A DNA stretch of 64,000 nt. Source: Cerasicoccus sp. TK19100. GTDB taxonomy: Bacteria; Verrucomicrobiota; Verrucomicrobiia; Opitutales; Cerasicoccaceae. Shown one piece after another: positions 2,704 through 18,953 of the stretch. Every line of letters starts with the position of its first letter. Position 1 is the first letter of the stretch. Under the pieces are notes generated by a model that saw only the letters and a list, made by a program, of their open reading frames with translations, had not been told where the DNA came from and did not search any database. The DNA is taken from NCBI RefSeq assembly GCF_027257155.1, contig NZ_JAPWDU010000005.1, positions 372,001-436,000 of the forward strand. The letters are read 5' to 3'. The position numbers and the translations under genes are program-made.

Positions 2704-5700
2704 TCGATGGAAAGCCCCCTTAACATTCTTTTAATAAGGACAACGTCCCCAGCGGATAATTCACCATCGCCATTTAAGTCTCCAGCAATGATTTCTGTAT
2801 CAGTTGGGTCTGGCGAATTGGATTTAGACAATGCTTTGAGAATGTCCTCATCAGTTGAAGTTACCTGACCATCGCCATTTAAGTCTCCAGGAAGGAAGGT
2901 ATTTGCAACTTCCATGCTTGCAGGTTCACCGATATTGACGTTAACCGAGTATCCTGATTCAGCATGAAGTTCGGCGGACTGGACATAAATGGTGGTTTGT
3001 AGGCCAAGTGTTGAGGAATCATCCACGTAGAATTCCAAGACAAATAGCTTTCCTGATCCGCCTTGGATAGAACCGCTCAAGCCGTTGATAGATAACAGCC
3101 CATTCGCAGTCGCTCCATCATCATTGAAATTCAGTTCTTGGCTGAGCGAAGTCTTAAGCACACTTGGTTGGCCATCAATTTGTGTTCGAGGTGTAATTAC
3201 GGCGGGATCATAGTTTATGTCGATTTTTAATCCCTCGCCTGTTAATCCTAACGAATTATCGATCGACAATTGCACCTTCACTTTTTTTGCGGGTTGGCCA
3301 CGAATTGATCGTAGAGATAGACTGACTTCGCCGGCACCAGCTGATACCAATTGAGAAGGCGTACTTTCCAAGATGATTGGTTCCGTATTGCCAGGTTGCA
3401 GGTAGCTAGTGATAGAAGTTACCTGATAATGCAAGAGCTCTCCAATGCCGGCCGTCTGGTCAAGGTATTCAGGGAGGGGCTGAGCTTCATCCAGCAGACT
3501 CTCGAACGGATCGACAAGTTCTTCTGCCCTATAGATAAAGTATCCGGCTATGCGCGATTGCCAGCTTGGATCCCAACTTAATAGAATGCTATCAGCGCCA
3601 GTGGTGGCTTTCAAGCCGGATGGCCGTCCAACATGAGGATCAGATAAGCTAATTAAACTTCCGTTCTCTAGTCCGGCAATCAAGTCGACATCCCCGTCGT
3701 TTTCCAAGTCGACGGCTGCTATTTTTAGGCCTTGGGCAAAGCCAGAATGCGTGCCGCCCCAAACCTTGCTCCTTAATGTGAAGTTATTAGAACCATCATT
3801 ATAGAACTCCCAGATTCGACCTTGTTGGTCGGACGCCAGCACATCTAGCGAGTTATCCTGATTAATGTCACTCACGCTTAGACTGACACCATTGGTGACG
3901 GGTTGACTGAGAAAGTCATGATTGTAAGCGCCGAAGTAGGGGGTGCTTTGGGTGTTTTCGAAGTAGCGCACAGTGCCATCGGATAACATCGCAAATAGAT
4001 CCGCGTAACCATCATTGTTGAAATCTGCCAAAGACGGGATCAGCATGCTTGTATCCATTGTTAGCTCGAGAATGGTTCCGCTATCGTTGATGTTATCCAT
4101 GGAAGGTATTAGATAGAGAATGTTTGTATCGCCACCAACCACGAGGTCATCCAGACCGTCGCCATTCCAATCCCCACCGGCTATGACCGGATTTTGCAGA
4201 TTAGAGATCAGATCATTTAATGTCTGTGTGGCTTCCACCTTGCGGAAATTTAAAAACCTCGTGTTGCCAATGTTTTCATATATCCACAAGCCTCCCGCGT
4301 GAGCGACAAATAGATCGAAGTCCTCATCTCCGTCCCAATCCGCGACCGCAACCGATGATTGACCGTCAGTTATTACACCATCCTGACTTTCTGAATTGGT
4401 TGAAAAAAATGGAGTGAGGACGCCGTCGACTAATGCTAAAGAAACGTTTTCATAGAATTGGAGATCGACAATTACTGATTCGGAATCGCCCCAAAATACC
4501 CCCCCTGGCGTGGTGCGAGTGTAGAAAATTGGACTGCTGGTATCTTCAAATTCTTCCAACAAGGTGTAGCCATCTCCATCGGTATCCGAATCGGAGCTAT
4601 GGTCCAAGGTCCCATAATAGTATAATTCATAGGCATCCCGGATAAAGTCATTATCTGAGTCGCCTTCAGCATAATGAGCTATTGCTTCAATATCTTCGCC
4701 ATCTACTTCAAAACTGACCTGTTTTTCGGAGACTCCCCAATTATCAGTGATACGCGCTCCATTAATACTCCAGTATGCGAAATCGGGGTCATCAATATTC
4801 GCAGTTGTTTGCATATGTCCATTAACGACAGTGCGGACTACTGTCGGAATGATTCCTTCAGGATTGCTAGCTATTTTATACTCGTGGAAGTTACCGAAGT
4901 TAATACTTATCGAATTTGAATCAGCCCAAAAAATACCACCTTTGGTCTTATAGCTTGAGAAAACCGGGGGAGCGCCTGAATCATAATCTTCGCCGATGGT
5001 TACGCCGTCGCTATTGGGATCAGATGATCGTGAATAGGCGAGGTCGCCAAAATAATAATATTCGTAGTAATCTGGTAAACCGTCACTATCGCTGTCTCCA
5101 GCAAATACAAAGGCAATGCCTTCCCGGTCAGCATTTACCATTTGAAAAACCAGTCTGGTAATCGCAACGCCCCAAGCGTCTTCCTGTCTCACGCCATCGA
5201 GTGTCCAATAGCCAAATCCTTCTTCGAATGCGAAGTCTTTCGAGGTGACGGTATAGCCGGAATCTACTTCTTTGGTATACTCATAAAGGCCTTCTGGTTC
5301 GGAGCGAAGTAAAAAGGTTATACCATCCTTAAAATCGATGGTGATGGAATTAGAGTCTGCCCAGAAAAGGCCACCTTTGGTTTTCGTCTGGGCAAACAAT
5401 GGGTGAGCTCCGGTAAGAAACTCTTCTCTCAATATCGTTCCATCGCCGTCGTCGTCACTAATCGCAGATTTACTCAGATCGCCAAAGTATTCAATCTCGA
5501 ACCAGTCGGGCACCAAGTCATTGTCTGAGTCAAAGTCATTTGGTAAATAATGTGCAGTGGTGGTCGTTTCTTCGAGTAATACGAAGGAAACTGGATTGAT
5601 CGAGCGCCCCCACGCATCCCTGTATGATTCAAGAGGATGTGAATCAATGGACCAATGGGTAAAGCGATAGCCTTCATAGCTATTTGGAGCCGTGTCAGTT

Positions 5701-5912
5701 TTGTAAATTTTACCAGTTTCCCGATACGACATTGACGGGTAGATAGCATTGATGACTGAAGCATCAGCATCATTCACTGACTCCTTTGTTAATGCAACGA
5801 TGGCAGCTTGGCTGGTGTTCAATGCCAATGTTACGATCACCAAAGTAAGGGCTGCTCTAAGTGAATAAGAGGCCTTTATTGAACTCAGTGTTTGGAAATT
5901 TCCAAGAAGCAT
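2700..5912 (-). CDS. Large secreted FG-GAP / Fn3 / cohesin / dockerin protein
   Basis: I use the ATG at 5912 (1,070 residues), not the TTG at 5978. The ATG lies after the upstream stop and directly precedes a signal peptide ending NTSQAA. Residues about 130-470 hold three copies of a module pairing a calcium-type DSDNDxxPDxxExxYFG segment with GGxFWADSNSI. Residues about 485-755 are FG-GAP/VCBS-type repeats (DWDGDEDFDLFVA, DWNGDGLDDLVVGG), typical of beta-propellers. Fibronectin-III follows at about 757-850, a cohesin-like domain at about 857-1005, and a type-I-like dockerin with two calcium loops (DLNGDGQVTSTDEDILKAL, DLNGDGELSAGDVVLIKRML) at about 1008-1068. Carrying both cohesin and dockerin, it could act as an adaptor on the cell surface. 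No catalytic domain is recognised. Confidence 0.87.
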   Translation of the reverse strand: MLLGNFQTLSSIKASYSLRAALTLVIVTLALNTSQAAIVALTKESVNDADASVINAIYPSMSYRETGKIYKTDTAPNSYEGYRFTHWSIDSHPLESYRDAWGRSINPVSFVLLEETTTTAHYLPNDFDSDNDLVPDWFEIEYFGDLSKSAISDDDGDGTILREEFLTGAHPLFAQTKTKGGLFWADSNSITIDFKDGITFLLRSEPEGLYEYTKEVDSGYTVTSKDFAFEEGFGYWTLDGVRQEDAWGVAITRLVFQMVNADREGIAFVFAGDSDSDGLPDYYEYYYFGDLAYSRSSDPNSDGVTIGEDYDSGAPPVFSSYKTKGGIFWADSNSISINFGNFHEYKIASNPEGIIPTVVRTVVNGHMQTTANIDDPDFAYWSINGARITDNWGVSEKQVSFEVDGEDIEAIAHYAEGDSDNDFIRDAYELYYYGTLDHSSDSDTDGDGYTLLEEFEDTSSPIFYTRTTPGGVFWGDSESVIVDLQFYENVSLALVDGVLTPFFSTNSESQDGVITDGQSSVAVADWDGDEDFDLFVAHAGGLWIYENIGNTRFLNFRKVEATQTLNDLISNLQNPVIAGGDWNGDGLDDLVVGGDTNILYLIPSMDNINDSGTILELTMDTSMLIPSLADFNNDGYADLFAMLSDGTVRYFENTQSTPYFGAYNHDFLSQPVTNGVSLSVSDINQDNSLDVLASDQQGRIWEFYNDGSNNFTLRSKVWGGTHSGFAQGLKIAAVDLENDGDVDLIAGLENGSLISLSDPHVGRPSGLKATTGADSILLSWDPSWQSRIAGYFIYRAEELVDPFESLLDEAQPLPEYLDQTAGIGELLHYQVTSITSYLQPGNTEPIILESTPSQLVSAGAGEVSLSLRSIRGQPAKKVKVQLSIDNSLGLTGEGLKIDINYDPAVITPRTQIDGQPSVLKTSLSQELNFNDDGATANGLLSINGLSGSIQGGSGKLFVLEFYVDDSSTLGLQTTIYVQSAELHAESGYSVNVNIGEPASMEVANTFLPGDLNGDGQVTSTDEDILKALSKSNSPDPTDTEIIAGDLNGDGELSAGDVVLIKRMLRGLSIE

Positions 5913-5928
5913 GGGACTGGACGTCAAT

Positions 5929-8664
5929 TTACTGGAGCTTTTCTGTGACCGCGTAAGAATTCTTGTCCCCAGCAGCAATTAATCGCACATTAGTGAGATT
6001 TGCCGGTACATTGGTCTGCCCATAGTCATTATTGCCCCACGCGACTACTGAGCCGTCCGCTTTAAGAGCCAATGCATGTTCTCGGCCTGCGGATATGGCT
6101 ATGACGTTAGTTAGGCCAGCGGGCACATCGCATTGCCCATCGCTATTATTGCCCCAAGTGACAACGGAGCCATCCTCTTGAAGCGCCATGGCGAAGTTAT
6201 AGCCCGCGTCAATGGCTTTGACGTTGTCTAAGCCTTCCGGTACATCGCATTGGCCGGAACTGTTATAACCCCAGGCAACGACTGTTTTGTCTTCGCGCAA
6301 TGCCAGAGAGAAACGGTAGCCAGCAGAAATAGCAATTGCGTCATTCAAGCCTTCCGGTGGCGTCGTTTCGCCTGAGGAATCATTTCCCCATCCGATGATC
6401 GTGCCATCAGATTTTAGAGCCAACATATGTCTTCCGCTTGTGGCAAGGGCAATGCTGTTATCAACTTCGTCGGGAGTGGTTACGTAGGACCCTCCATCAT
6501 AGTTAATTACATTGACGTAGCCACCTTCCTGTTGATAGATTATATAGGAGCCACCACAATCAAATAACGTTATTTTCGGATCAAACTCTGCATCGTCATA
6601 AATGTAATCAATACCGCGAAAATCGCTATAACCTCCCCATGAGCTATAAGTTCCACTATCCCTGAGCGCGGTCACGTGTGTTTCGCCAGCGGAAATTTTT
6701 CTTAGATCCTGTGTATTCTTCGGAATGGATGCGGTTTGGCGGTATTCATTATCTCCCCAAGCATAAATAAAGGCTACGCCATCATAAGGCTGATCGATTG
6801 CATACCATCCGTATCGATGCGAGTTAATATAACCACCCCAAGGGAGCGGTGCGCCGCGTATACCCGTCCGGGCAATTTCTGCAAAATTAATTTCTTCAGA
6901 TGTTGCCAGAGCCTTATTTGCTAACCTCATGAAGTACGGCACCGCATAGGCGCTAATCGAATAAGAGCTAGTGAGTTCGAAACCCTCAAACACTCCACTA
7001 TTCTCATTCGCAATGATAGCTCCATCAATTAAGTCCAATCCCGGGTCCAAGCGGGCGATTTGCCAAAATAAGAGGTCTTGGATATTTGCTGAAATACTGC
7101 CGTAGGTAAGTTCTTCATGCTCTCCAGCAGCAGGTATGGTGGTCCAACTAAAGCCTAGAAGCTCCCGACTATCTTGGCATAAAATCTCAAATTTAATATT
7201 GATTAATTCAACGTCCAAGTCTGCTGCTACGTCCCACGTTAAGATTAGCTCCGTATTTGTTGGAATATCTTCGCCGATGTTAGCTTCTGTGCCATCAATA
7301 AAAGTCATTGGGCGGATGACGTTATCGAAGTCGCGTCCATGGCCAACGAACACCAGTGGATAGGCTCTGACGGTCTCATCGTTTAAATCAGAAATACGGA
7401 ATATAACATCCAGATACGTAGTGCCTTCCCGCATAGCGGCAGAAATAATTTGAACTTCTGGCTCATCAGACAGCTGCTTGTAGGGGCGAAAACGAATCAC
7501 GCCATCCTTGAAGTCATACATCACTTCATGGTCTTGATATAGCACTTGGCCCCAATTTAGATCACTACTCTTGTTATCGTCGACAGTTACCTGGTTTTTG
7601 CCACCATCGTTGACGCTCAGAAATTCTAAGTTGAAGGCATCATATACTTTGTCACCAATGCTTCCCGCGCCATCGATATCTAATGTTAACCTAACGTCCT
7701 CAATAAGAATATTAGTGGAATCAACTAAGCCAGCATTGCTCAAACTACTGAGGCTGTTTGCTGGGAGGTTAAAATCACTACCACCGATATCCGGCACTCC
7801 GGTTGCGGCTCCAACCGCCACTAGGTTGTTGGGATAACCAACGGTAGCTCCATTAATTGAAAGTGGGTATTTGCTGAAGGTGTTGAATCCTGTCGTGGGA
7901 AAGATCCGACCATCACCTGGTTCAAGCGTTGTCGCGTAGGGAAATAGATCTGCAAAATCATTGCCACCTGAATCATCCATAATAATGCGCAGCACCGGAT
8001 TTTCCGAATCCAAGTGGATGGTGAAACCCTTGGCATTGCTTATCTGTCCCAGAGCGGAAAAGAATTGGCTTGATGTAGGAACTCCAGAGTTGGAATTTGA
8101 GAATAACCCTGTTCCGAAAAGGCCATAATAAGTTTCGTGGAGTCCAGGTTGATCTACTGAGAATTTTTCGTTCCAAGTTGTGGATGTTGGCAGGTTGTTA
8201 GCTGTCGCCTCAGTGACTTGGCCTACTGTCATACTGGGAATTGTCAGGTAATCATTACCGGATGCATTGCTTAATGTGACAGAAGTGGTTACTGGTATGA
8301 TCGTGCTAAAGTTTACGCCGTTGTCAATTGATGTACTTTGATTTACCGCTCCGCTGATACTTTGAAAGTCACCCCAGTATTGCCGATCTGGCCGATAGGG
8401 TGCATCTGGGTATTCAGGAGATGGCTCGCTCGGATTGGCATAACTGGAATATCCTGCGAATAGACCTCCAGTGCCGGTGTCTAATTGAAATAAACGCGGT
8501 TCCCCGCCACCAATCTTCAGATAAATGCCGTAGGTCTGTTTCGTATTTTCACCACCAATATCCACAACATCGCGTTGAAGCGGTATCTCAATAATTGAAT
8601 TACTGCCCAGCAGGCTCAGGGTCGCTAGCAGTATTAGAAAGGTAAAAGAGTGCTTATTATACAT
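5929..8664 (-). CDS. Secreted pepsin-like aspartic peptidase fused to RCC1-type repeats
   Basis: A 911-residue protein and first gene of the three-gene operon, ending 16 bp before the next ATG. A hydrophobic leader occupies residues 1-22. Residues about 25-395 look like a two-lobed pepsin fold. The first active-site motif is FQLDTGTGGLFA (Asp62), a flap-like region is near 96-120, and a second motif PDIGGSDFNLP (Asp292) sits where DTGTS/DSGTS is expected. The lobe ends with VLYQDHEVMYDFKDGVIRF, matching the family's LG..FLR..Y.vFD....IGFA pattern. A linker domain follows. Residues about 640-911 contain RCC1-like blades (AISAGYRFSLALREDKTVVA, WGNNSDGQCDVP repeated). Bacterial pepsin homologues exist but are uncommon. 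Catalytic competence is uncertain because the second motif has Ile instead of Thr/Ser. Confidence 0.78.
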   Translation of the reverse strand: MYNKHSFTFLILLATLSLLGSNSIIEIPLQRDVVDIGGENTKQTYGIYLKIGGGEPRLFQLDTGTGGLFAGYSSYANPSEPSPEYPDAPYRPDRQYWGDFQSISGAVNQSTSIDNGVNFSTIIPVTTSVTLSNASGNDYLTIPSMTVGQVTEATANNLPTSTTWNEKFSVDQPGLHETYYGLFGTGLFSNSNSGVPTSSQFFSALGQISNAKGFTIHLDSENPVLRIIMDDSGGNDFADLFPYATTLEPGDGRIFPTTGFNTFSKYPLSINGATVGYPNNLVAVGAATGVPDIGGSDFNLPANSLSSLSNAGLVDSTNILIEDVRLTLDIDGAGSIGDKVYDAFNLEFLSVNDGGKNQVTVDDNKSSDLNWGQVLYQDHEVMYDFKDGVIRFRPYKQLSDEPEVQIISAAMREGTTYLDVIFRISDLNDETVRAYPLVFVGHGRDFDNVIRPMTFIDGTEANIGEDIPTNTELILTWDVAADLDVELINIKFEILCQDSRELLGFSWTTIPAAGEHEELTYGSISANIQDLLFWQIARLDPGLDLIDGAIIANENSGVFEGFELTSSYSISAYAVPYFMRLANKALATSEEINFAEIARTGIRGAPLPWGGYINSHRYGWYAIDQPYDGVAFIYAWGDNEYRQTASIPKNTQDLRKISAGETHVTALRDSGTYSSWGGYSDFRGIDYIYDDAEFDPKITLFDCGGSYIIYQQEGGYVNVINYDGGSYVTTPDEVDNSIALATSGRHMLALKSDGTIIGWGNDSSGETTPPEGLNDAIAISAGYRFSLALREDKTVVAWGYNSSGQCDVPEGLDNVKAIDAGYNFAMALQEDGSVVTWGNNSDGQCDVPAGLTNVIAISAGREHALALKADGSVVAWGNNDYGQTNVPANLTNVRLIAAGDKNSYAVTEKLQ

Positions 8665-9185: not shown

Positions 9186-9311
9186 TCATCCACCAAAGTT
9201 AAGGTAGGTCTCCGAATCAATTTTTCCGGCCTTTAACCATTCCTTTGCCCAAGCATAAGCGTCAAAGTCAGCATTCAGGAAAACTCCCTTAAGCCAGGGA
9301 CTTAACGTGTG
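9186..9311 (-). pseudogene. Possible C-terminal remnant of an unidentified gene
   Basis: A minus-strand reading frame ending at 9186 encodes a plausible protein tail (SPWLKGVFLNADFDAYAWA, then KIDSETYLNFGG). Upstream of about 9311 the same frame simply becomes the antisense of the HU-like gene. The natural 5' part therefore appears missing. The family was not recognised. The call rests on the protein-like composition of the tail and the abrupt change at the junction. Confidence 0.3.
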
Positions 9312-9938
9312 GTATGGCACACCGGTGCTACCGTAGGCTTCGAGGAATTTCAAGACTACCGCGAGGCCAAGAGCGCCCTGAGCGCCACACAACTGATGCA
9401 CGACTGGATAGCCCTCAACGCCGCCAAAGGGCAGGAGGTTGACCTTGGTCCGCTGGGACGTTCGCGCCTTGGCATGAAAGGTTCGTTTACCGGCTCGCCC
9501 AAACGCATCCTGGATAAACAGGTCACGCTGACGCTTGCATGGATTTTTCCCCGGAAGTTAAAAGAGCGGGTCGCCAACGCTGGCGCGAAGCTCGTCCGCA
9601 AGCGAGTCGCCCCCGTAGTCAAAGAACCTCTGGTCCAGCAAATCAAGGCCGTCGAGGCCAACGGCCAACTCCACCCAGCAGCGGATATATACGTGCCGGG
9701 TCAGTTCATCCGCATTTACGGCGCCCGCTTGAAGTTCAACCCCGCCGCCGAGGACGAGGGCGTCTTTATCATTAAAGGTAAGCAGAAGCCGCGTCGCCTC
9801 ACGGAAGCCCTCCGCATCACGCAGCAGGAATTACTGGTCCGCATCCCGGATGATGTTAGCGGCCAGTGCAAGCTGCGCGTCGTCCGCCGACATCCGGCGA
9901 AAACCGGAGAGCTGTTGTGGGGAGAGCTGTGGAGATAG
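9309..9938 (+). CDS. HU-like DNA-binding domain with C-terminal Ig-fold (DUF4469-type), probably 5'-truncated
   Basis: A 209-residue frame starting at a GTG just after an in-frame stop. Residues about 8-95 resemble the HU-like family with added domains: GFEEFQDYREAK, then GQEVDLGPLGRSRLGMKGSF, the conserved arm region where a Gly-rich turn precedes KGxF. Residues about 110-209 match the Ig-like DUF4469 pattern (YVPGQFIRIYGARLKFNP, EGVFII, LLVRIPDDVSGQCKLRVVRR). Normal family members carry about 20-30 further N-terminal residues completing the first helices, and none are encoded upstream. Start and functionality are therefore doubtful. It converges on the giant ATPase gene, whose stop is 9 bp away. 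Confidence 0.6.
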   Translation: MVWHTGATVGFEEFQDYREAKSALSATQLMHDWIALNAAKGQEVDLGPLGRSRLGMKGSFTGSPKRILDKQVTLTLAWIFPRKLKERVANAGAKLVRKRVAPVVKEPLVQQIKAVEANGQLHPAADIYVPGQFIRIYGARLKFNPAAEDEGVFIIKGKQKPRRLTEALRITQQELLVRIPDDVSGQCKLRVVRRHPAKTGELLWGELWR

Positions 9939-9947
9939 ATTTCTGAA

Positions 9948-12900
9948 CTATTGTTGTTCTTTGTCACTTTCTGGATTAGCCTTCGGAGTCGGCGTATCAA
10001 TCCCCGTATGGCGGAAGAGAAGGTGGAAAGCCTCCAGGATTTGGTCGAGCGTGTGGTCGGTCTTTTCGTCGAGGGAGAGCTTGGGCAAGACGACGCTCTG
10101 GCGGTTGGCCAGCTTTTCGCCGAGCTGCTCAATGGCGGCGGCGAGTTCGGCGTTGGCAGCGCCTTGTGGCTTGGAGGCGGGCTTGGGCTTAGTGGACTTT
10201 TCCAAGCTGGTTGCTAACTGTTGAAGTAGGGCGGACGCTTCGTCGGAAAGGCCAAGCGTGGGAGCTGGTGGTTTGGGTAAAATCGACGCCAATTGTGCAA
10301 TGGTTTCTTCGTCGAGTTGGATGGGCTGCTGTGGTTGTGGCTTGGGCAACAGTGCGCCGAGTTGGGCTAAGGTGGTTTCGTCGATTTGCAATGGCTTGGG
10401 TTCGGGCGGAGCGGGGAGCAGGGCGCGGAGTTTATCCAGCGTGGCGTCGTCGAACGATATTGGCTGACGCATCGCGGTAAGGCGTTCGCCGAGGAGCGCA
10501 AGGCCGTCGCTGAGGGCCATGTTGTTGTCCGCGAGTTGGGACACGACTTTGTTGACTGGATCTTGGTCGCCACCGCCCATGATCTTGTTTTTTGTGAAGC
10601 GTTTTTTGATCTCGTTCCAGCGCTCTTCTTCGGGCGGCGTGATCTTGCCTTCGAGTTGGCGGAACTTGAGTAAGTTGGCCTCCGCGCCGTCGGTGAGGGT
10701 TTGGGCTTCGTTTTCGTAGTGGTCGTCGATCAGGGACTCCACTTCGTCGTCCGACATGATTGGCAAGAGCTTTTCGGCAATGCGGTTCATATTACGATAG
10801 GAGCCTTGCAGCTTAAAGGGCGGCTCGGTCCGGTATTCGTCAGCTTGCGCGGCGCTGCGAATGTATTCCATATTGACGCGTAAGATGGTGTCGCGGACGC
10901 GCATCATCTTCTTCATGACGCCGACCATTTCCTCGACCTCTTCGCCCGAGTAGCTGGCTTCGAAATCTACGCCTTCGCGGATGCCGGTCTTGGCGATCTT
11001 GATGACCGCGTAAACATCCTTCCGGCTGCGGTTGGACAGCGGGCGCAGGGCGGCGTTGGACGTGAGTGAGTTTTCGAGGTAACTATCTTCGAATGCGCTG
11101 CTGTGTCCACCAATGATGTCGCCGAGGTTGTAGGTGTCGGCGCGGTTCGCGAGCATGTCCGGTATCTGGAATTTGCCGCCGGTCTCGGTGTAGGGATTAC
11201 CGGCCATGACGACGGCTACCTTCCGCCCCTTGAGATCGTAGGTGCGCGCCTTGCCCTTCCACACGCCTTCGATTTTGCGCTGGGCGTCGCAGAGGGAAAT
11301 GAACTTCTGCAAAAGCTCGGGATTGCAGTGTTGGATGTCGTCGAGGTAGATCATCACGTTGTCGCCCATTTCGAAGGCGAGATTTAGCTTATCGATTTCC
11401 TCAGCGGCAGCCTTGTTCGGCGCTTCTTCAGGATCGATGCTGGTGACGTGATGACCGATCGCCGGGCCGTTGATCTTCACGAAGGTGATGCCCAGGCGGT
11501 TGGCGATGTATTCCATCAACGTTGTCTTACCGTAGCCCGGCGGCGAGATGAGCAGCAGCATGCCCATGCGGTCGGTGCGCGCGTCTTCGCCGGCCGTGCC
11601 GATCTGTTTAGCCAGGTTGTCGCCGATCATCGGCAAGTAAACTTTATCGAGCAGTTGGTTGCGGACAAAGGCGGACATGACGCGCGGCTTAAGCTCGTCG
11701 AGACGGAGGTCTTCGCGGAAGAAGTCCACCAACTCACCCTTGCGCTCCTGGAAGCGGCGGTACATCGGGACAATGTTGCGTTCGTGCTCGCGGAGCTTGG
11801 CGAGGAATTTATTATAGTGCAGGTGTAGCTGCTTGGCTGCGATGACTTGGTGGTCGCCGCGCAGGCCGTCGATGTCGGTCTCGATGGGAACTTCCACGAC
11901 GTGGCGTTTTTCAATGGGACCTCGCAACAAATGCGCGGCGGCTTCGTCGAGGTAATCAAACTGATTTTCCGGTGAGTTCTGCGCCAACATATAACCGCGT
12001 ATCCAATCGCGGAGCACTTGGAACTCTCCGGCTGCGTTGCCGCGCATGCCCGCACGCGCTTTTTCGAACTTGTCCGTGAAGCGCTTGGCGACGAGCTCGT
12101 GATGAAAGCCATCCGCGAGCGTTGCAGCCTCGTAGGAGACGGCGAAGGAGTCGGTGTCGACGAGTTCATGGAACAGATAATCGGCGGCTTCTTCGGCCAG
12201 CGAAAGGATGACGCGATTTGCTTGAGCGGATGGCGGCGATGACGAAGCATCGCCCTCCAGTTGTCGCGACTTTATTGGAGGGCGATGCTTCGTCATCGCC
12301 GCATCCTGCTGGCGAAATATCTCTTGATGGAACAGCTCCGACTCCTCGCAGAATACCGCGATGCGCTTGGTGAGCTCGCGGATGTAGCCTGTCTGCGTTT
12401 TATGCTGCGGGAACAGGCGGAGCATTTCGCCGAAGGCGTCGACCTTAGCTTCGAGCAAATCATCGTCCGGTGTGCGGCCAAGAAAATGCTGCCAATAGAC
12501 CAAACCGCAGGCGCGGGCCTCGGGCGAGTAGCGTAGCAGGCCGGCGGCTTGATGAATCGTCAGCAGCGCGTCGATTAACTTTTGCGCGTCTTCATCGTGA
12601 ACGCCCTTGATGTAGGCTTCCTCGTAACGTGGAGCCATGAATTTTTGGACGAAAGCCAGGCGAGCTTTGTCATCCAAAGCTTGGTAGTCCGCCGCGGTGA
12701 TCGCCAGCTCGGACTTGGCGTCTGGCTTAACCGTTTCGAAGTGGCGCAGCAGTTTGTAGGCGAGATACTCACCGCGGTAAACGGCGTCACTCTCACTAAC
12801 GGTTTGCATGTCCCACACCGGCTTGGTGGCGTTGAGTTGTTCGTCCTTGATCGGATCGAAAAACTGCGTGCCGGAAAGGTGAAAATAAATCTGGCCTTCG

Positions 12901-15536
12901 CGCTGGACGGTGGTCAGCGCAAGCTCTTGCGTGTTGACGCTGAAGTGGTGGCGACCGAACTTGATGATATCGTCGCCATCGGCAAAGAGCTCTTGTTTGT
13001 CTTTGAGCTGGCGGATGGCGTCGCTTTGGACAGTCTTGAGCTGGCCGAGGATGTCGTCGCCCTTCAGGTTTTCGCCGATTTCGCCAAGTTCGTCTGCGAT
13101 GTCGCGCACCTTTTCGACCATGAGGTCGCTGGCGAAGTAGCCGTTGATATCGGTGAGTTCCTTAAAGCCTTTGGCGCGGTTTTCAATACCGGTCAGTATT
13201 CGCTTGGCGCTGGCAAGCAGGCGTGTGGTCTGCCGGTTGCGGGCCTCCTGCAGCGACATCTTTTTCGTCTCAAACGCGTTGTAGAGCTCGTCGCGTTTGG
13301 TAGCGAGCTGGTCGAGGTATTCATCGAAGTCCGCGTAACGCCCCTCCAGCTCCTCGAGCTGCACCATGAGTTTGGTCAGGTAGTCGTCGCACTGCTTGGG
13401 CGTCTCGCAAAGGTCCAGGTAGTTCGTGACGGCTTGATTGAGCAGCTTGAGCTGAGCATTGAACTGAGCGGCACCCTCGACGAGCATCAGCTCTTTGCGG
13501 CGACTCTTCAGGTCGTTGCGCACCTGGTTGAGGCGCGAGTAAATATTGGAAATCGAATCGATGATGCGCGTGGTCTGCGTCGCGTCGTCGATCTTCAGGT
13601 TACCTACGATTTCGATCAACAGCTCCAGCTCGGCGCCAGCTTCGTCGAGGCGCTCGTTGATCTCGTTGGCCTCGGTGACTTTCTCGATGGCTTCGATCGC
13701 GGCTGCTTGCTCTTCAACGGCGTTGCGATACGGGTCGAGCGCTTCATCGAGCAAGAGGAATTCGACGGCCTGCAGCGCGACTTGGTCGGAGAGCTCCTTG
13801 ACCTGCGATTCGAGCTTTTCGGAAAGCGGAACATCGGCATATCGCAGGTCGCGCAACCCAATGATCTCGCCGCGAATGGTGCGCAGGTCGGCGAGGCTGC
13901 GGACGAAGCCCATGATGTCGTCCGGTCGTGTGGAGCTGACCTCGGTCGTGAGCTTGCGGACACGCACGCTGACGTTGGTTGTTTGCTCGTTGGTGGACTT
14001 GCGGATACGCTGGACTTTGTCGAACTCGTCGATCGCACTTTGCGCAGTCTTATTGATCGTCTGGAGCGTCTCTTGGATGTTGGCGGCCTCTTCACTATTG
14101 AGCCAGAAATAGGTGTCGAGGATGTCGCTGCTGAGCTTGACGAGATCGACGTAAAGCCCGGTGTAGCTTTCCTCTTTTTGCAGGAGGTTGTAGACCTCGT
14201 AGCACTCGCTCATGCAGCGGACGACTTCCTTGTTGCCGACCTTGAACAGGTAGCTGTCGTCGTTGCCCGTGGGGGGTAAGTCGTCGCTGGTGAAGGGGGT
14301 CTGCCAGATTTGCAGCGAGTGGTGCTTTTGCGCTTCGCCGTCGCCGCGGAAGTAGATCAGCTCGCCATTATCGAAGAAGGTGAAGCCATTGCAAATGATC
14401 GGTGTGGCGACGGTTTGCTCAATGAGGTTGTAGCTCATGAGCACGTATTGACCGCTGACACGCTCGTAAAATGAATAGAGGAAATCCTCACCGTTGGGCG
14501 ACTTGACGAGACGCTCGAACCACATGTTGCTCAACTCGCTGTCGAACAGTTTGCACTCGCCGCTGTGGAGGTAATAACCGTTGGCAAAAATGACGCCCTG
14601 GTCTTCGGGCAGCGCGACGCAGCTCGTGCCAATGGCGTCGGTGCGGCGAACTTCTTTGACCTTGTGATTGTAGATGAAATAGCGCGTCTGCTTCTCCTGA
14701 TAGGGGAGGATGCGCAGCAGAATCAGGTCGCCGACGACGGCGAAAAAGATGTCGGCGTCGTCGAGGGTTTGGTCGGCCTGGTCAACGGGCTCGGCGTAGA
14801 TGCCTTCGCCTGAGGTGGTGTTGTCCTCGACCTTAATTGTGAGGTCACCGCCGACGCATTCGACGAAGATTTTGTCCTCGATAGAGATATGTGGGTGCAA
14901 TCCGCCGCGCTGCATGTCGCGATGGGCGCGGGTCCACTTGAAGGAATGCTGTTCGGGAAACGTATACTCCGGGTCAAAGCGATTGCCCAGATACTCCAGC
15001 CCGTCGTCGGTGATGATCCACTTAAAGACCTTGATGTCGCGGATGTCCTCACTGATGCGAAACGCCATGAACAGCTCGGCACCGCGCCGCAGGAACTTCA
15101 CGAAAGACGTGGCCTTATAATACTTGTAGAGGTAGGCAAAGTCGTCCTGGAAATCGCGGTTGTTGATCAGGTCCAGGGGCTCGGCATGGAAGGTCTTGTC
15201 GCTTGGCTCAAAGCGATAAACCGAAAACACATCGCCGACCTCCATTTGTGACTTCAGGCCGAGCTTGACGTTGTAGCCAAAGAGGAAACGCCCGCCGGGC
15301 AGAGCGATCATGTCGCGCGCCGTGCAGTTGTGCTCGGTGGTGATGCGGTCGGTGCCGATGAGCTTGTTTTCGATGGCACCGAAAACGTCCTGCCGGTTTT
15401 TATTGAGCGTTTGCAGGCGCTCCAGCAAGGCGGCGGACTGGGTGTCCAGCCGCTGCCGGATGACTTCGTAGGCTCCGCCTTCGAGCTTGGGCGAGGGCGC
15501 GGCTTTGTTTTCAGTTTCTGTGGCGGTGTCTGCCAT
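9948..15536 (-). CDS. Giant AAA+ ATPase of the DUF3686 ('DNA repair ATPase') type
   Basis: 1,862 residues, last gene of a four-gene minus-strand cassette. The N-terminal ~470 residues are beta-rich, with propeller-like strands (PGGRFLFGYNV, ELFMAFRIS). Residues about 480-870 are long coiled coil. A helical middle follows. The AAA+ module has Walker A SPPGYGKTTLMEY near residue 1333, Walker B MIYLDDIQH near 1395, and a sensor-1-like VVMAGNPY, most like MoxR-type ATPases. The tail (about 1690-1760) has three 22-residue repeats of the form hxhD-E-x-TLAQL-x-x-hLPKP. Residues about 1079-1101 are encoded by an inverted repeat that looks like an in-frame insertion. The 'DNA repair' name is historical database wording. 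Here the neighbours suggest work at flotillin-type membrane domains. Function is unproven. Confidence 0.85.
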   Translation of the reverse strand: MADTATETENKAAPSPKLEGGAYEVIRQRLDTQSAALLERLQTLNKNRQDVFGAIENKLIGTDRITTEHNCTARDMIALPGGRFLFGYNVKLGLKSQMEVGDVFSVYRFEPSDKTFHAEPLDLINNRDFQDDFAYLYKYYKATSFVKFLRRGAELFMAFRISEDIRDIKVFKWIITDDGLEYLGNRFDPEYTFPEQHSFKWTRAHRDMQRGGLHPHISIEDKIFVECVGGDLTIKVEDNTTSGEGIYAEPVDQADQTLDDADIFFAVVGDLILLRILPYQEKQTRYFIYNHKVKEVRRTDAIGTSCVALPEDQGVIFANGYYLHSGECKLFDSELSNMWFERLVKSPNGEDFLYSFYERVSGQYVLMSYNLIEQTVATPIICNGFTFFDNGELIYFRGDGEAQKHHSLQIWQTPFTSDDLPPTGNDDSYLFKVGNKEVVRCMSECYEVYNLLQKEESYTGLYVDLVKLSSDILDTYFWLNSEEAANIQETLQTINKTAQSAIDEFDKVQRIRKSTNEQTTNVSVRVRKLTTEVSSTRPDDIMGFVRSLADLRTIRGEIIGLRDLRYADVPLSEKLESQVKELSDQVALQAVEFLLLDEALDPYRNAVEEQAAAIEAIEKVTEANEINERLDEAGAELELLIEIVGNLKIDDATQTTRIIDSISNIYSRLNQVRNDLKSRRKELMLVEGAAQFNAQLKLLNQAVTNYLDLCETPKQCDDYLTKLMVQLEELEGRYADFDEYLDQLATKRDELYNAFETKKMSLQEARNRQTTRLLASAKRILTGIENRAKGFKELTDINGYFASDLMVEKVRDIADELGEIGENLKGDDILGQLKTVQSDAIRQLKDKQELFADGDDIIKFGRHHFSVNTQELALTTVQREGQIYFHLSGTQFFDPIKDEQLNATKPVWDMQTVSESDAVYRGEYLAYKLLRHFETVKPDAKSELAITAADYQALDDKARLAFVQKFMAPRYEEAYIKGVHDEDAQKLIDALLTIHQAAGLLRYSPEARACGLVYWQHFLGRTPDDDLLEAKVDAFGEMLRLFPQHKTQTGYIRELTKRIAVFCEESELFHQEIFRQQDAAMTKHRPPIKSRQLEGDASSSPPSAQANRVILSLAEEAADYLFHELVDTDSFAVSYEAATLADGFHHELVAKRFTDKFEKARAGMRGNAAGEFQVLRDWIRGYMLAQNSPENQFDYLDEAAAHLLRGPIEKRHVVEVPIETDIDGLRGDHQVIAAKQLHLHYNKFLAKLREHERNIVPMYRRFQERKGELVDFFREDLRLDELKPRVMSAFVRNQLLDKVYLPMIGDNLAKQIGTAGEDARTDRMGMLLLISPPGYGKTTLMEYIANRLGITFVKINGPAIGHHVTSIDPEEAPNKAAAEEIDKLNLAFEMGDNVMIYLDDIQHCNPELLQKFISLCDAQRKIEGVWKGKARTYDLKGRKVAVVMAGNPYTETGGKFQIPDMLANRADTYNLGDIIGGHSSAFEDSYLENSLTSNAALRPLSNRSRKDVYAVIKIAKTGIREGVDFEASYSGEEVEEMVGVMKKMMRVRDTILRVNMEYIRSAAQADEYRTEPPFKLQGSYRNMNRIAEKLLPIMSDDEVESLIDDHYENEAQTLTDGAEANLLKFRQLEGKITPPEEERWNEIKKRFTKNKIMGGGDQDPVNKVVSQLADNNMALSDGLALLGERLTAMRQPISFDDATLDKLRALLPAPPEPKPLQIDETTLAQLGALLPKPQPQQPIQLDEETIAQLASILPKPPAPTLGLSDEASALLQQLATSLEKSTKPKPASKPQGAANAELAAAIEQLGEKLANRQSVVLPKLSLDEKTDHTLDQILEAFHLLFRHTGIDTPTPKANPESDKEQQ
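12233..12302. repeat. 27-bp perfect inverted repeat inside the ATPase gene
   Basis: Arms 12233-12259 and 12276-12302 are exact reverse complements, separated by a 16-bp loop (12260-12275). The unit is divisible into the reading frame and encodes a polar, low-complexity stretch (RQLEGDASSSPPSA) between helical segments. Size and composition resemble the REP-like palindromes found between genes elsewhere in the window. It is best read as an in-frame insertion of such an element. Confidence 0.85.
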
Positions 15537-15566
15537 TGGGTGAGGCTGCTTTTGTGTTTTGGTTCT

Positions 15567-15646
15567 TGGTGCTTAGTTCTTGGTTTCAGTGATGGGAGTC
15601 GCTGCTAACGTTGTGTCAGCAACCAAGCACCAAGAACTAAGCACCA
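15567..15646. repeat. 18-bp inverted repeat between the ATPase and flotillin genes
   Basis: tggtgcttagttcttggt at 15567-15584 is repeated in inverted orientation at 15629-15646. The arms fill most of the 126-bp gap between the flotillin stop (15663) and the ATPase start (15536). In mRNA it could form a long hairpin that attenuates or protects the operon transcript. It may equally be a mobile palindrome of the 'cttagttcttgg' kind. Confidence 0.7.
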
Positions 15647-15662
15647 GGGCACGATCAACTGA

Positions 15663-17711
15663 TTAGTTTCTAATCAGTTGATCCAAGAACTCACCGGCTT
15701 TTTTGCCGCTGATGCCGTATTTGTCGGCGAGGGAGAGGAGGTCGTTGGCTTCCTTTTTATCCTGGCCTTCAGCCTGGTCGCCGATGCGGGTGAGCAGGGC
15801 GGCGATGGACAGGTTTTTAATGTCCTCTGAGCTGATGTTGAACTGCTCGGTCCACTCCTTGAGCTTGGTCTTGAAGTAGTCGCTGTTGCCGTTGAAGAAC
15901 GTGTCCTTTACGTCGGTGAGGGCGCGGGAGTTGTCCATGAGGCGGTCGATGGATTTGCCTCGGGTCACGGCACCCACGACGCGGTCGTAGAAGTCCGTGC
16001 TGCCGCCGACGATGTCGACCTTGGTGTTCTTGAGCGCTTCGCCCAGGACCTTAGCCTGATGCTCGGCGATCTTCTCGTTGACCTCGATTTCGGCGAGTTC
16101 GACTTCCTTGTCCTTTTGCAGGCGCAGCTTGAATTCCTCGTGTTCCTTGCCGGCTTCGTTGAAGACCTTCATGGCCTCGGCCTTCTTGTGGATGCCCTCG
16201 GCTTCGGCGAGATACTTTTTCTCGTCGGCGCTCGCAGAGGCGGCTCCCTTTTCGCCAATGCCCTTGGCTTCGGCCAGGTATTTCTTTTCGGCAACGGTGG
16301 CCTCGGCTTCGCCTTGTTTTTGGAAGGCGGCAGCCTTGGCTTCCATAACGCTGGCTTCGCCCAATCCGACGGCGGCAGCTTCGGCGCTGCGACCTTCGGC
16401 GAGGGTTTTCTTGGCGGCGGATTCGCGGCCGGCAGCGGTCTCGTGGGCCTCGGCGGAGATGACTGTTTCCTCGGCCTTTAGTTCGACGGCCTTCTTGGAG
16501 GACTCGGCCTTGCGGACCTCATGGTAATAAAGTTCATCGGCCTTGAGCTGCTCGGCTTCTTTGCTGGCCTGAGCGGTCTTAACCTTTTCAACAAGCTGTT
16601 CTTCGGCGCGTTGTTCGGCCTGGGTAATGGCGACTTTCTTCGCACGATCAGCACCGGCAAAGGCCTCGGTATCCTTGATCTTTTCCTGCTCTACGACGAC
16701 GGTCTTCTCGACCATTACGCGTTCCTTAATGACTTCCTGAATCTCGCGCTTTTCCTTTTCAACGGCCTTGTCCTTCTCGATGTCGGCGAGCTGGGTAACC
16801 TTGTTGCGCTCGACGACTTCCAACTGGCGGTCGCGCTCGACGCGTTCGGTTTCAATGGCGTCGGTGCGCTGCTTATTCTTTTCAGCAACGATGATCTGGC
16901 GCAGCTTGTTCTCCTCGGCGATGGCGAGTTCTTCCTCGGTCGCGATGCGGGCGGTTTCGGCGCGGAGGCGCTGTTCCTCGTGCACCCGGGCGGCTTCGGC
17001 TTCTTCGCGGGAAGTGATGACGGCGATCTCGCGCTTCTGCTTTTGCTCGGCCTCAGCCTGTTGCTTCTCCAGTTCAAGGACGGCTTCGCGGGCTTCGACG
17101 TTTTGCTTGGTGATCGTCTTGATGCGATCCTGGTCGATCTGGTTGGCGAGGATCTTTTCGCGCGAGGTGCGGTCGGTGATCTTCTTAATACCCTCGGCGT
17201 CGAGGATGTTGTCCGGGTTGAGCTCGGTTAGGGACGTTTGCTCGAGATCATCAATGGCGACGTCGTCGAGAATGTAGCCGTTTAAGTCGACACCAATAAC
17301 CTTGATGATTTCATCGCGGAACTTTTCACGTTCAACGTAAAGCTCTTCAAAATCAAATTGCTTACCGACCGTTTTGAGCGCTTCCGAAAATTTGGCATCG
17401 AAAAGCTCCTTGATTTTATCAATGTCGCTGGCTCGCTTACATCCGATTGTTGTCGCGACCTTTTTGACGTCTTCGATGGTGTCGTTGATACGCACGAAGA
17501 AGTCGACGGTGATATCCGCACGGATGTTGTCTTTACAGATGAGTCCCTGCTTGCCACGGCGATCGACACGGACTCGTTTTACTGAGATATCCATGTCTTC
17601 CAGCATGTGGAACACCAGGATTTGCCAGATGCCTGAGAAGGAGACTTTGATGCCTCCGAAGCCGGTCCGGACGAGTGCCTGACCTTGCGGGGTTTTGCGG
17701 TATATCATCAT
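15663..17711 (-). CDS. Flotillin-family SPFH/coiled-coil protein (YqiK-like)
   Basis: 682 residues. Residues about 1-190 form the SPFH (band 7) domain (GQALVRTGFGGIKVSF; DVKKVATTIG; NGYILDDVAIDDLEQT). Residues about 195-560 are a charged Glu/Ala/Lys/Arg coiled coil with an internal repeat (DEKKYLAEAEGI twice). The last 120 residues are a globular flotillin C-terminus. Flotillins oligomerise on membranes into cage-like scaffolds. Unusually there is no N-terminal transmembrane helix: the protein begins MMIYRKTPQGQALV, immediately at the SPFH domain. Anchoring probably depends on the co-encoded NfeD-like protein. It lies 52 bp downstream of the small SPFH gene and 126 bp upstream of the ATPase gene. 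Confidence 0.93.
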   Translation of the reverse strand: MMIYRKTPQGQALVRTGFGGIKVSFSGIWQILVFHMLEDMDISVKRVRVDRRGKQGLICKDNIRADITVDFFVRINDTIEDVKKVATTIGCKRASDIDKIKELFDAKFSEALKTVGKQFDFEELYVEREKFRDEIIKVIGVDLNGYILDDVAIDDLEQTSLTELNPDNILDAEGIKKITDRTSREKILANQIDQDRIKTITKQNVEAREAVLELEKQQAEAEQKQKREIAVITSREEAEAARVHEEQRLRAETARIATEEELAIAEENKLRQIIVAEKNKQRTDAIETERVERDRQLEVVERNKVTQLADIEKDKAVEKEKREIQEVIKERVMVEKTVVVEQEKIKDTEAFAGADRAKKVAITQAEQRAEEQLVEKVKTAQASKEAEQLKADELYYHEVRKAESSKKAVELKAEETVISAEAHETAAGRESAAKKTLAEGRSAEAAAVGLGEASVMEAKAAAFQKQGEAEATVAEKKYLAEAKGIGEKGAASASADEKKYLAEAEGIHKKAEAMKVFNEAGKEHEEFKLRLQKDKEVELAEIEVNEKIAEHQAKVLGEALKNTKVDIVGGSTDFYDRVVGAVTRGKSIDRLMDNSRALTDVKDTFFNGNSDYFKTKLKEWTEQFNISSEDIKNLSIAALLTRIGDQAEGQDKKEANDLLSLADKYGISGKKAGEFLDQLIRN

Positions 17712-17763
17712 GATAACTTGTGGTTGGTGGCTATGGTTGTTTTATTGTAATGCGGTTTAAGAA

Positions 17764-18282
17764 TCAGTTTATCGCGCCTTGGCTCTCGTTGAACTCGGGT
17801 GGGAATTTGTCGGCATGATCAATGGCGATGTTGTCGACGATCAGGCCTGGCTTAAAGTAGCCATTCGGGGTGCGGCGGAGAATGGCCTCGATAAATGTTG
17901 GTGAGTCATTGATTTCCGCCCAGGAAAGCTCGCCGGCGGCCGTGCGGACGAGTTGCTCGGCGTCGTTGATCAGTTCGGGGATGCGCTCATCGAAATTGTT
18001 CAGGTTTTCGACGCCAAAGTGGGCAGCGGCATCGAGCACGTCCTGTTGGGTGTCATTGACGCGCAAATGGAAGACGATGCTCAGGTCGAAGAGTTGCTGA
18101 TCCTTGGAGATGAGAGGGGTATCCGGACCGGCGAAGTTCAACGAAAGCGTGGAAATACTGATATCGACGCGGTGCGTCTGGTGAACGACCGGCATGGCAA
18201 ACATGCCATCGAAGGACACACGTTGGCCGCCGAGTCCTTCACGGAGCAGGGCTTTTCCCGAGGCTGCCATTTGATACTTCAT
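17764..18282 (-). CDS. Stand-alone SPFH-domain protein, paralogue of the flotillin N-terminus
   Basis: A 172-residue protein that aligns by eye with the first ~190 residues of the next gene: GKALLREGLGGQRVSF versus GQALVRTGFGGIKVSF, and NGYFKPGLIVDNIAIDHADK versus NGYILDDVAIDDLEQ. It ends where the flotillin coiled coil would begin, with no membrane helix. It may cap or seed flotillin oligomers, or be a subunit of a mixed ring; both ideas are inference. Its ATG overlaps the NfeD-like gene by 4 bp (ATGA), implying coupled translation. Without the neighbouring flotillin the domain would be hard to recognise. Confidence 0.8.
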   Translation of the reverse strand: MKYQMAASGKALLREGLGGQRVSFDGMFAMPVVHQTHRVDISISTLSLNFAGPDTPLISKDQQLFDLSIVFHLRVNDTQQDVLDAAAHFGVENLNNFDERIPELINDAEQLVRTAAGELSWAEINDSPTFIEAILRRTPNGYFKPGLIVDNIAIDHADKFPPEFNESQGAIN

Positions 18283-18953
18283 TGGGCACCCTTCGCTTCT
18301 ACTAAGTGAGGGGCTTCGCTGGTCTTGGTGATCCGGTATGACTTGCCGGAGGAGTCTTTGCCCACGATTTTGGCGTGGTCGCCCTTGACCAGCACTTCGG
18401 CACCGTCGTCGAGCACGACATTAAACCGGCAAGGGACGCCGTTATGGTCGATTTCCAGTTGCCCGTATTTTTCCGTAACTTCGGCGGTCAGCACGATGCC
18501 GACAGCGCCGATGAAGGATTCATTCTGTGAGGTGACGCCAAAGAGCTTACGGAATACACGGGCACAGAATCGCATGAACATGCGCGTAATGTAGAGTGCG
18601 ATGGCCATGGAGCCAGCCATAATCGCGATGCCGATACCCCAGACGCTGACCGGGTTGAAGAAGTGGTTCAGTAGCATCATCGTGCCCCACATGAGGGCGA
18701 TGAAGACGCTGAGGGACCACATGAAAGGGGCTTCGCCATCGCTCAGGGCGTAGGAAAAGCGGCCCATCAGGCCAACTTCGCTGGGGTCAATCTCGCCATC
18801 GGCATCGAAATCGAAATCAAAGTCGAAAGCGGCACCGAAGAGCCCGCCAATGATCTGAAAGGCCCAATACAGCAAAACGAGCCCGAAAAGCGCAGTGAAC
18901 GGCAGGTTATACCAGCGCAGGGCTTCGTCGTAAATTTGCTGTAGCAGTTCCAT
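18279..18953 (-). CDS. NfeD/YqiJ-like membrane protein with cytosolic OB-fold
   Basis: 224 residues and first gene of the cassette. Three membrane segments are visible (about 19-42, 73-95 and 100-122). An acidic linker with DFDFDFDADGEIDPSEVG lies between the first two. A C-terminal beta domain (about 145-210; GAVGIVLTAEVTEKYGQLEI and DDGAEVLVKG) has OB-fold character as in NfeD and YqiJ proteins. These proteins are classic genetic partners of flotillins and are thought to tether them to the membrane. The promoter must lie in the 110-bp divergent region shared with glk. Confidence 0.85.
   Translation of the reverse strand: MELLQQIYDEALRWYNLPFTALFGLVLLYWAFQIIGGLFGAAFDFDFDFDADGEIDPSEVGLMGRFSYALSDGEAPFMWSLSVFIALMWGTMMLLNHFFNPVSVWGIGIAIMAGSMAIALYITRMFMRFCARVFRKLFGVTSQNESFIGAVGIVLTAEVTEKYGQLEIDHNGVPCRFNVVLDDGAEVLVKGDHAKIVGKDSSGKSYRITKTSEAPHLVEAKGAQ

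Follow-up and report, generated by a model that had tools for sequence, protein, structure and literature searches.

The window analysed here is a stretch of 64,000 nucleotides from Cerasicoccus sp. TK19100 (Verrucomicrobiota), which is closely related to Cerasicoccus frondis and C. maritimus. At positions 9948-18953 it holds a minus-strand run of four open reading frames (ORFs) that encode a YqiJ/YuaF-type NfeD protein, a short SPFH protein, a flotillin and a giant DUF3686 AAA+ ATPase. The flotillin and the ATPase of this set are almost strictly co-inherited, and I consider the set to be, most likely, an ATP-driven remodeller that works on a flotillin/NfeD scaffold in envelope stress, and a form particular to its lineage of a membrane-stress operon that is already known. 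The core idea and the linkage have been published before (PMC11237479, PMC10948618), and the system is known in outline. Added here are a C-terminal module of the flotillin and a MoxR-like core of the ATPase, which make the partnership of the two proteins testable. The features are as follows.

18279..18953, minus strand: YqiJ/YuaF-type NfeD protein, 224 amino acids (aa), from hydropathy and family profile
17764..18282, minus strand: short free SPFH protein, 172 aa (Band_7, 29.3 bits, E 1.1e-6)
15663..17711, minus strand: flotillin, 682 aa, with SPFH domain, long charged repeat region and conserved C-terminal module
15666..16178, minus strand: flotillin C-terminal module (about residues 512-682), confined to ATPase genomes, candidate docking site
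15537..15662, minus strand: flotillin-ATPase spacer with an 18-pair hairpin (folding z -4.9), one arm of which is a genome repeat
9948..15536, minus strand: DUF3686 AAA+ ATPase, 1862 aa (PF12458, 614.8 bits; DUF7902; AAA)
14292..15374, minus strand: predicted beta-propeller of the ATPase (about residues 55-415), from a predicted model and structure comparison
10467..11684, minus strand: predicted AAA+ core of the ATPase (about residues 1285-1690), from a predicted model and structure comparison

An earlier note on this DNA had described a minus-strand run of four genes with an AAA+ protein of 1,862 residues, and the places, sizes and parts agree with what I find.

Conservation of the gene set

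The comparison comprises 35 loci from Verrucomicrobiota and genus genomes plus the best 80 of at least 529 candidates from other genomes, which 80 lean to near relatives; once L076, L077 and L101 had been dropped as duplicates of L079, L078 and L059, 112 loci remained. Linkage was counted, beyond the window itself, at the 89 loci where the sequence upstream of the ATPase gene extends for 5 kb or more (23 of the 112 were left out), and ORFs were scanned with profiles of the four families. A flotillin lies within four genes of the ATPase at 83 of these loci. The earlier note had proposed scoring how often both an SPFH protein and a YqiJ/NfeD-like protein are found within that distance of a DUF3686-type ATPase, and this is so at 80 of the 89. 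Strict adjacency in the order NfeD-flotillin-ATPase occurs at 56, and at L128 the flotillin block is divergent to the ATPase gene yet adjoins it. As an internal control, no other neighbour family appears at more than 26 of the 112 loci.

Nine loci miss one or both partners nearby. At L070 these lie five and six genes away, at L072, L074, L075, L091 and L097 there is none nearby, and L090, L117 and L122 have a flotillin but no NfeD gene. Whole-genome searches located the flotillin module and NfeD elsewhere in the genomes of L091 and L097, and NfeD elsewhere in that of L090. The genome of L074 (G324) carries a flotillin with NfeD beside it on another contig, and that of L072 (G135) carries a flotillin on another contig, with no NfeD found. 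Nine genomes from the 23 cut-short loci were searched for the module: six were positive (one through a 49-position fragment) and three negative (L087, L096 and L127).

The loci belong to Verrucomicrobiota, Planctomycetota, Bacteroidota, Bacillota, Thermodesulfobacteriota, Pseudomonadota, Myxococcota, Fibrobacterota and Lentisphaerota, among others, and plasmids add Actinomycetota and Deinococcota to the range of the ATPase set. Of 387 Verrucomicrobiota genomes, 34 have DUF3686; the flotillin that goes with it (E <= 1e-60) was found in 33, none of them outside the 34. Both genes thus occur in 33 genomes, the ATPase only in 1, the flotillin only in 0 and neither in 353. The claim of the earlier note that the ATPase belongs with flotillin and NfeD is borne out by the linkage, and L091 and L097, though unlinked, have both partners elsewhere.

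Within the genus, the ratio of nonsynonymous to synonymous substitution rates (dN/dS) is 0.04-0.21 in the 10 of 12 gene comparisons with unsaturated dS; against genome G002, dS is saturated for the NfeD and short SPFH genes. Compared with C. frondis and C. maritimus, respectively, dN/dS is 0.04 and 0.09 for the flotillin, 0.05 and 0.06 for the ATPase and 0.10 and 0.12 for NfeD. All four genes are under constraint, which for the more distant pair is weakest in the short SPFH gene. The set is hard to put down to chance, because its neighbourhood is conserved across several phyla, its co-occurrence is near-perfect and its dN/dS within the genus is low.

A flotillin module seen only in ATPase genomes

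The flotillin of the window is 54-98% identical to 12 members of its family, and the regions in which a coiled coil and a C-terminal flotillin domain would be looked for are present and conserved in that family. Band_7 was matched at 43 bits in the genome search and missed by the whole-protein Pfam scan, Pfam flotillin models all fell short of E 0.01 (25 members), and a sequence search with the whole protein against solved structures gave no match.

When the last 170 residues are searched alone (E <= 0.001), the module is found in 32 of the 387 phylum genomes, all 32 of which have the ATPase. Two ATPase genomes gave no match to it: G233, and G011, whose flotillin matches the profile at positions 5-297 only. 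Five YqiK-type flotillins from ATPase-less genomes of the phylum score 150-173 bits and align only to position 390-462 of 680, the module being missing; it is missing also from E. coli YqiK, whose match to the flotillin profile ends at position 454. By contrast, the matches extend to position 601 or beyond in ATPase-linked flotillins from a Hymenobacter, a Streptomyces, a Deinococcus and a Pseudomonas plasmid. No clear relative of the module was found in Pfam or the PDB (best weak PDB match, E 0.051). Because it is seen only in ATPase genomes and is missing from YqiK-type flotillins without ATPase, I regard the module, on the evidence of sequence, as a candidate dock at which the ATPase may make contact.

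A strongly hydrophobic stretch precedes the SPFH domain in 88 of 92 full-length flotillins, and the four without it are those of the window and its three sister species. The window flotillin has no N-terminal membrane helix, and upstream of its start there are only ten open codons (open frame 692 aa); the earlier note was therefore right to describe a flotillin without a membrane helix of its own. Since this helix is missing, I term the locus a variant, not a plain member, of the flotillin-YqiJ-AAA+ operon.

A second SPFH protein in Cerasicoccus, and the NfeD protein

The Band_7 match of the 172-aa protein substantiates the free SPFH domain that had been claimed here. Both the long C-terminal region and an N-terminal membrane helix are absent from this protein, and the start codon of its gene overlaps the stop of the preceding NfeD gene. 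An open short SPFH gene stands between NfeD and flotillin in four of four Cerasicoccus, and two Bacteroidota loci (L093 and L128) have one in the same place, with the hydrophobic stretch kept in both SPFH proteins. Among the Cerasicoccus short proteins, that of L052 has a hydrophobic stretch, and those of the window and two others have none. A sequence search against solved structures returned one unrelated weak match (E 0.74). The Cerasicoccus form is a new variant, in which a short SPFH gene was gained and the flotillin anchor lost.

It could be argued that the short SPFH gene is a duplicate that has no role and is in decay, and that the remainder works as an ordinary three-gene set. The protein does diverge fast, with 54% identity to its counterpart in C. 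maritimus and 38% to that in G002 against 92% and 89% for the flotillin, and its branches in the SPFH tree are very long. However, the gene is open in all four Cerasicoccus, two Bacteroidota have a short SPFH gene in the same NfeD-flotillin interval, and its dN/dS is 0.05 against C. frondis and 0.21 against C. maritimus (saturated against G002), so I hold decay to be unlikely. The tree is of 45 SPFH domains from 38 picked loci plus the window, and because its branches are so long I draw nothing from it on a single origin of the Cerasicoccus and Bacteroidota short genes.

Hydropathy predicts three membrane helices in the NfeD protein, from about residues 21, 77 and 102, followed by a soluble C-terminal part that is probably an OB-type domain. 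The profile of its family matches E. coli YqiJ (E 1.1e-11), and Pfam finds YqiJ_N in 6 of 13 family members. The Pfam scan of the window protein itself found neither an NfeD nor a YqiJ family, and its match to the YuaF structure 2k14 is weak (E 0.029). The three hydrophobic segments and the profile match agree with the three-helix NfeD/YqiJ-like protein proposed earlier. Operons of NfeD and SPFH genes, and duplicated SPFH genes in the cyanobacterial ones, have been described before (PMC2636767).

A probable link to envelope stress

At 26 of the 112 loci the core has a PspA-type gene no more than four genes away, and 13 of these 26 also have a CesT/Tir-type chaperone gene (both clusters were named by Pfam from one representative each). 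The operon made of PspA/CesT-Tir, YqiJ/YuaF, flotillin and AAA+ genes, together with abbreviated forms, was described by Ravi et al. (2024; PMC11237479). Plasmid pQBR103 (L168) has a row of ten genes: YjfI, PspA, rhomboid protease, DUF2491, DUF350, DUF1190, glutathionylspermidine synthase, NfeD-type (typed by family profile), SPFH and ATPase. This row seems to join both Psp-linked operon types of PMC11237479, the polyamine-type synthase genes and the flotillin-ATPase set. A PspA match is found in 13 of 17 ATPase genomes checked and in none of the other 4. Two PspA proteins are encoded in the window genome, both away from this operon.

Further support comes from Pseudomonas aeruginosa, where I take PA3728 to be the same gene as PA14_16190. 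In strain PA14, bacA-F (PA14_16140-16200) form one operon by reverse transcription PCR (RT-PCR), and deletion of bacA raises BacB-F, including PA14_16190, together by 6.1- to 13.5-fold (PMC10948618). A mutant of PA3731, which is PspA-like, is defective in biofilm formation, and PA3731 accumulates on osmotic shock (PMC2587700); the abstract of that paper terms the cluster monocistronic, and the later RT-PCR shows it to be one six-gene transcript. PA3728-PA3732, there called phage shock proteins, rise in all phage-infected samples (PMC12041424). The presence of a PspA-type gene near the core and the bac reports (PMC10948618, PMC12041424) lend support to envelope stress, one of the two roles that the earlier note had suggested.

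The other was defence. For an anti-phage system that senses membrane damage one may cite the rise of PA3728-PA3732 on infection and the presence of ATPase relatives on 12 plasmid records (some chromosome-sized). The rise fits a membrane-stress response equally well, however, and homology searches give the defence suggestion no support. PADLOC returned weak matches to the ATPase only, the best being IetA at the P-loop (E 0.0011), and none to the other three proteins; 50,697 phage records gave no match at E 1e-10; and a scan of nine window proteins beyond the four found no defence family among those nine. I therefore think a defence system improbable.

The ATPase

Pfam families matched above cut-off are DUF3686, DUF7902, AAA and AAA_5, and the same scan found no peptidase family. 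The predicted model of the N-terminal 705 residues (mean predicted local distance difference test, pLDDT, 89.8) has a helix, a beta-propeller and then long helices. The propeller is nearest to WD40-type propellers (best Z 10.7, root-mean-square deviation (rmsd) 6.0, 226 residues aligned), and the modelled helices that follow fit a coiled coil. Residues 1115-1690 were modelled with a mean pLDDT of 82.5 and with low values around the P-loop. For the AAA+ core, the second structure aligner gave NorQ as best match (Z 16.4, rmsd 3.5, 240 aligned); its ten best rows are all NorQ and CbbQ (Z 14.6-16.4), followed by Rea1 (13.5) and ClpA (13.4). Foldseek, ordered by E-value, placed RuvB first (E 4e-6) and CbbQ2 second at about the same E. 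RuvB is absent among the 50 rows listed by the second aligner, which does not by itself exclude a similarity to RuvB.

The models thus suggest a MoxR-type AAA+ ATPase whose core fold is nearest to NorQ/CbbQ. MoxR proteins usually pair with a VWA protein, and NorQ-NorD VWA complexes are among the structure matches to the core. As regards a MoxR-type helix-2 insert, the secondary structure of the model goes from strand 237-242 to helix 261-276 with no strand pair in between. All 110 of 110 ATPases have the Walker A motif PPGYGKT and a Walker B motif ending in Asp-Asp. The window protein has a proline-rich repeated tail, which is not conserved in the family. The beta-rich N-terminus (here a predicted propeller), MoxR-like ATPase and repeat tail described in the earlier note are all seen, and long predicted helices stand where it placed a coiled coil.

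That the ATPase acts on DNA or the nucleoid, as its name in annotated records ('DNA repair ATPase') would have it, with neighbours that are merely co-regulated, is the least credible of the alternatives: the first place of RuvB in Foldseek, the long helices, and RuvB matches at the P-loop that stay under threshold (23.7 bits for Pfam RuvB_N, whose cut-off is 27; E 1.4e-5 for NCBIfam RuvB, a score well short of the cut-off there) speak for it, but CbbQ2 and NorQ rank as given above, the curated Pfam families above cut-off are others, and the ATPase is near-strictly co-inherited with a flotillin that usually bears a membrane helix. The view of the earlier note that this name does not explain the company of the gene is supported by the flotillin/NfeD linkage.

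How the set may work

In the remodeller that I favour, the NfeD-type protein would anchor and organise an SPFH assembly at the inner membrane, on its cytosolic side. As the scaffold of this assembly the flotillin would serve, its C-terminal module recruiting the giant ATPase, which may hold on by its beta-propeller and helical arm. Under envelope stress the MoxR-type ATPase would use ATP to pull on, assemble or disassemble proteins of the membrane patch, and in other species it may act together with the ESCRT-III-like protein PspA. In Cerasicoccus the short SPFH protein would be an addition to the operon, and is probably a further subunit of the ring. As the Cerasicoccus flotillin has no helix and a short SPFH protein has joined it, I propose that anchoring there depends more on the NfeD protein.

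Several points weigh against this remodeller. The complex of ATPase and flotillin is one that I infer, as the earlier note inferred recruitment to a flotillin cage. At 4 of 30 testable home-phylum loci (L070, L072, L074 and L075) no flotillin lies within four genes of the ATPase, NfeD was not found in 4 of 11 genomes searched (L117, L122, G135 and G233), and in G233 (L075) the ATPase is present and neither flotillin nor NfeD was found in the genome. The window operon has no PspA gene, its flanks being the glucokinase gene and a convergent gene without Pfam match. The usual AAA+ Walker B pair is Asp-Glu; because this ATPase has Asp in place of the Glu, ATP hydrolysis is not certain, and the model of the AAA+ core is weak around the P-loop. 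Distances over 85 loci do speak for the remodeller, with correlations of r 0.84 for flotillin and ATPase, 0.68 for NfeD and ATPase and 0.63 for NfeD and flotillin, but these values ignore the species tree. Since the profiles of flotillin and module derive from flotillins linked to the ATPase, they favour such flotillins. That this bias is the whole reason for the pattern is made less likely by a clear gap in flotillin profile score (short SPFH rows aside, at least 437 bits against at most 173 for the five YqiK-type proteins) and by the search for the module, which at E 0.001 gave no further genome. Finally, PMC13086221 reports no pronounced phenotype for individual or multiple SPFH gene deletions in P. 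aeruginosa PA14, and sees no conserved organisation into operons for the SPFH genes. Of ten other Pseudomonas species, it finds the bac flotillin, paFlo3, in only two, and it does not use the word ATPase in the main text.

I also suggest, tentatively and with less confidence than the remodeller itself, that the module is a dedicated dock for a MoxR-type remodeller, and that the set is a second SPFH-AAA+ machine beside HflKC-FtsH, without a protease. The Cerasicoccus form would then be a two-subunit SPFH assembly, neither subunit of which has an N-terminal helix in the window species and two of its three sisters, and it would be attached to the membrane mainly through NfeD.

The roles of bacterial flotillins are poorly understood, and deleting them can have little visible effect (PMC13086221). 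Here one flotillin subfamily and a single large ATPase are inherited together almost strictly, which offers a concrete partner, and the module, seen only in that company, is a short target for deletion. With the Cerasicoccus variant, nature itself provides an experiment on whether such a scaffold can do without a membrane helix in the flotillin. In the library searched there was no paper on DUF3686, on 'DNA repair ATPase' with flotillin, or on flotillin with MoxR and AAA+; the C-terminal module was not among the topics searched.

Gene layout and surroundings

The NfeD and short SPFH ORFs overlap by 4 bases, and the remaining gaps are of 52 and 126 bases. With regard to separate transcripts, a scan saw no minus-strand terminator-like sites in these gaps, but no sigma-70-type promoter either upstream of the NfeD gene, where a glucokinase gene starts at 19064 on the opposite strand. 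Beyond the ATPase gene lies the convergent gene at 9309-9938. The hairpin in the flotillin-ATPase spacer is not read as a terminator, because the scan did not call one there and because the hairpin is a genome repeat. A repeat like CTTAGTTCTTGGTGCTTGGTT has 11 matches (at most 2 mismatches, some overlapping) on six contigs of the window genome, including window positions 15621-15641, and a pattern count with at most 2 mismatches found none in the three sister species.

The same spacer is a repeated insertion place. At six loci, two of them in Cerasicoccus, it holds a gene of a cluster whose scanned member has PDDEXK_3, presumably of the GxxExxY type; the coordinates are 9540-9914 in L078 and 9525-9935 in L079, and the window has the genome-repeat hairpin there instead. 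Elsewhere in the window, positions 1780-8664 encode cohesin and dockerin domains with FG-GAP repeats beside an RCC1-repeat protein, all large and possibly secreted proteins, and positions 52472-58570 encode a protein of 2032 aa with DUF3857 and several TPR matches.

Comparison with known systems

There is a close likeness to the operon of PMC11237479, which has the same three core proteins, an AAA+ protein with beta-propeller and coiled coil, and a three-helix YqiJ/YuaF protein. The window differs in having no linked PspA or CesT/Tir gene and no flotillin helix, and in having the extra short SPFH gene. The bac operon, which is likened here by description and not by sequence, has BacA and PspA, unlike the window (PMC10948618). 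Among the relatives compared, the set of pQBR103 is closest to the bac type, and its ATPase is 40% identical to that of the window.

In E. coli, YqiJ-YqiK are an NfeD-type protein followed by a flotillin, as in the window, and both are matched by the family profiles; unlike the window, there is no adjacent ATPase gene, and YqiK has no C-terminal module. HflK/HflC with FtsH is the best-known case in which SPFH proteins work with an AAA+ machine. The window set is unlike it in that Pfam finds no peptidase domain in the ATPase and that the partner here is a flotillin. Among solved folds, the MoxR-type AAA+ proteins NorQ and CbbQ are nearest to the predicted AAA+ core, but the window ATPase is set apart from them by its large propeller and helical arm, and by its pairing with a flotillin.

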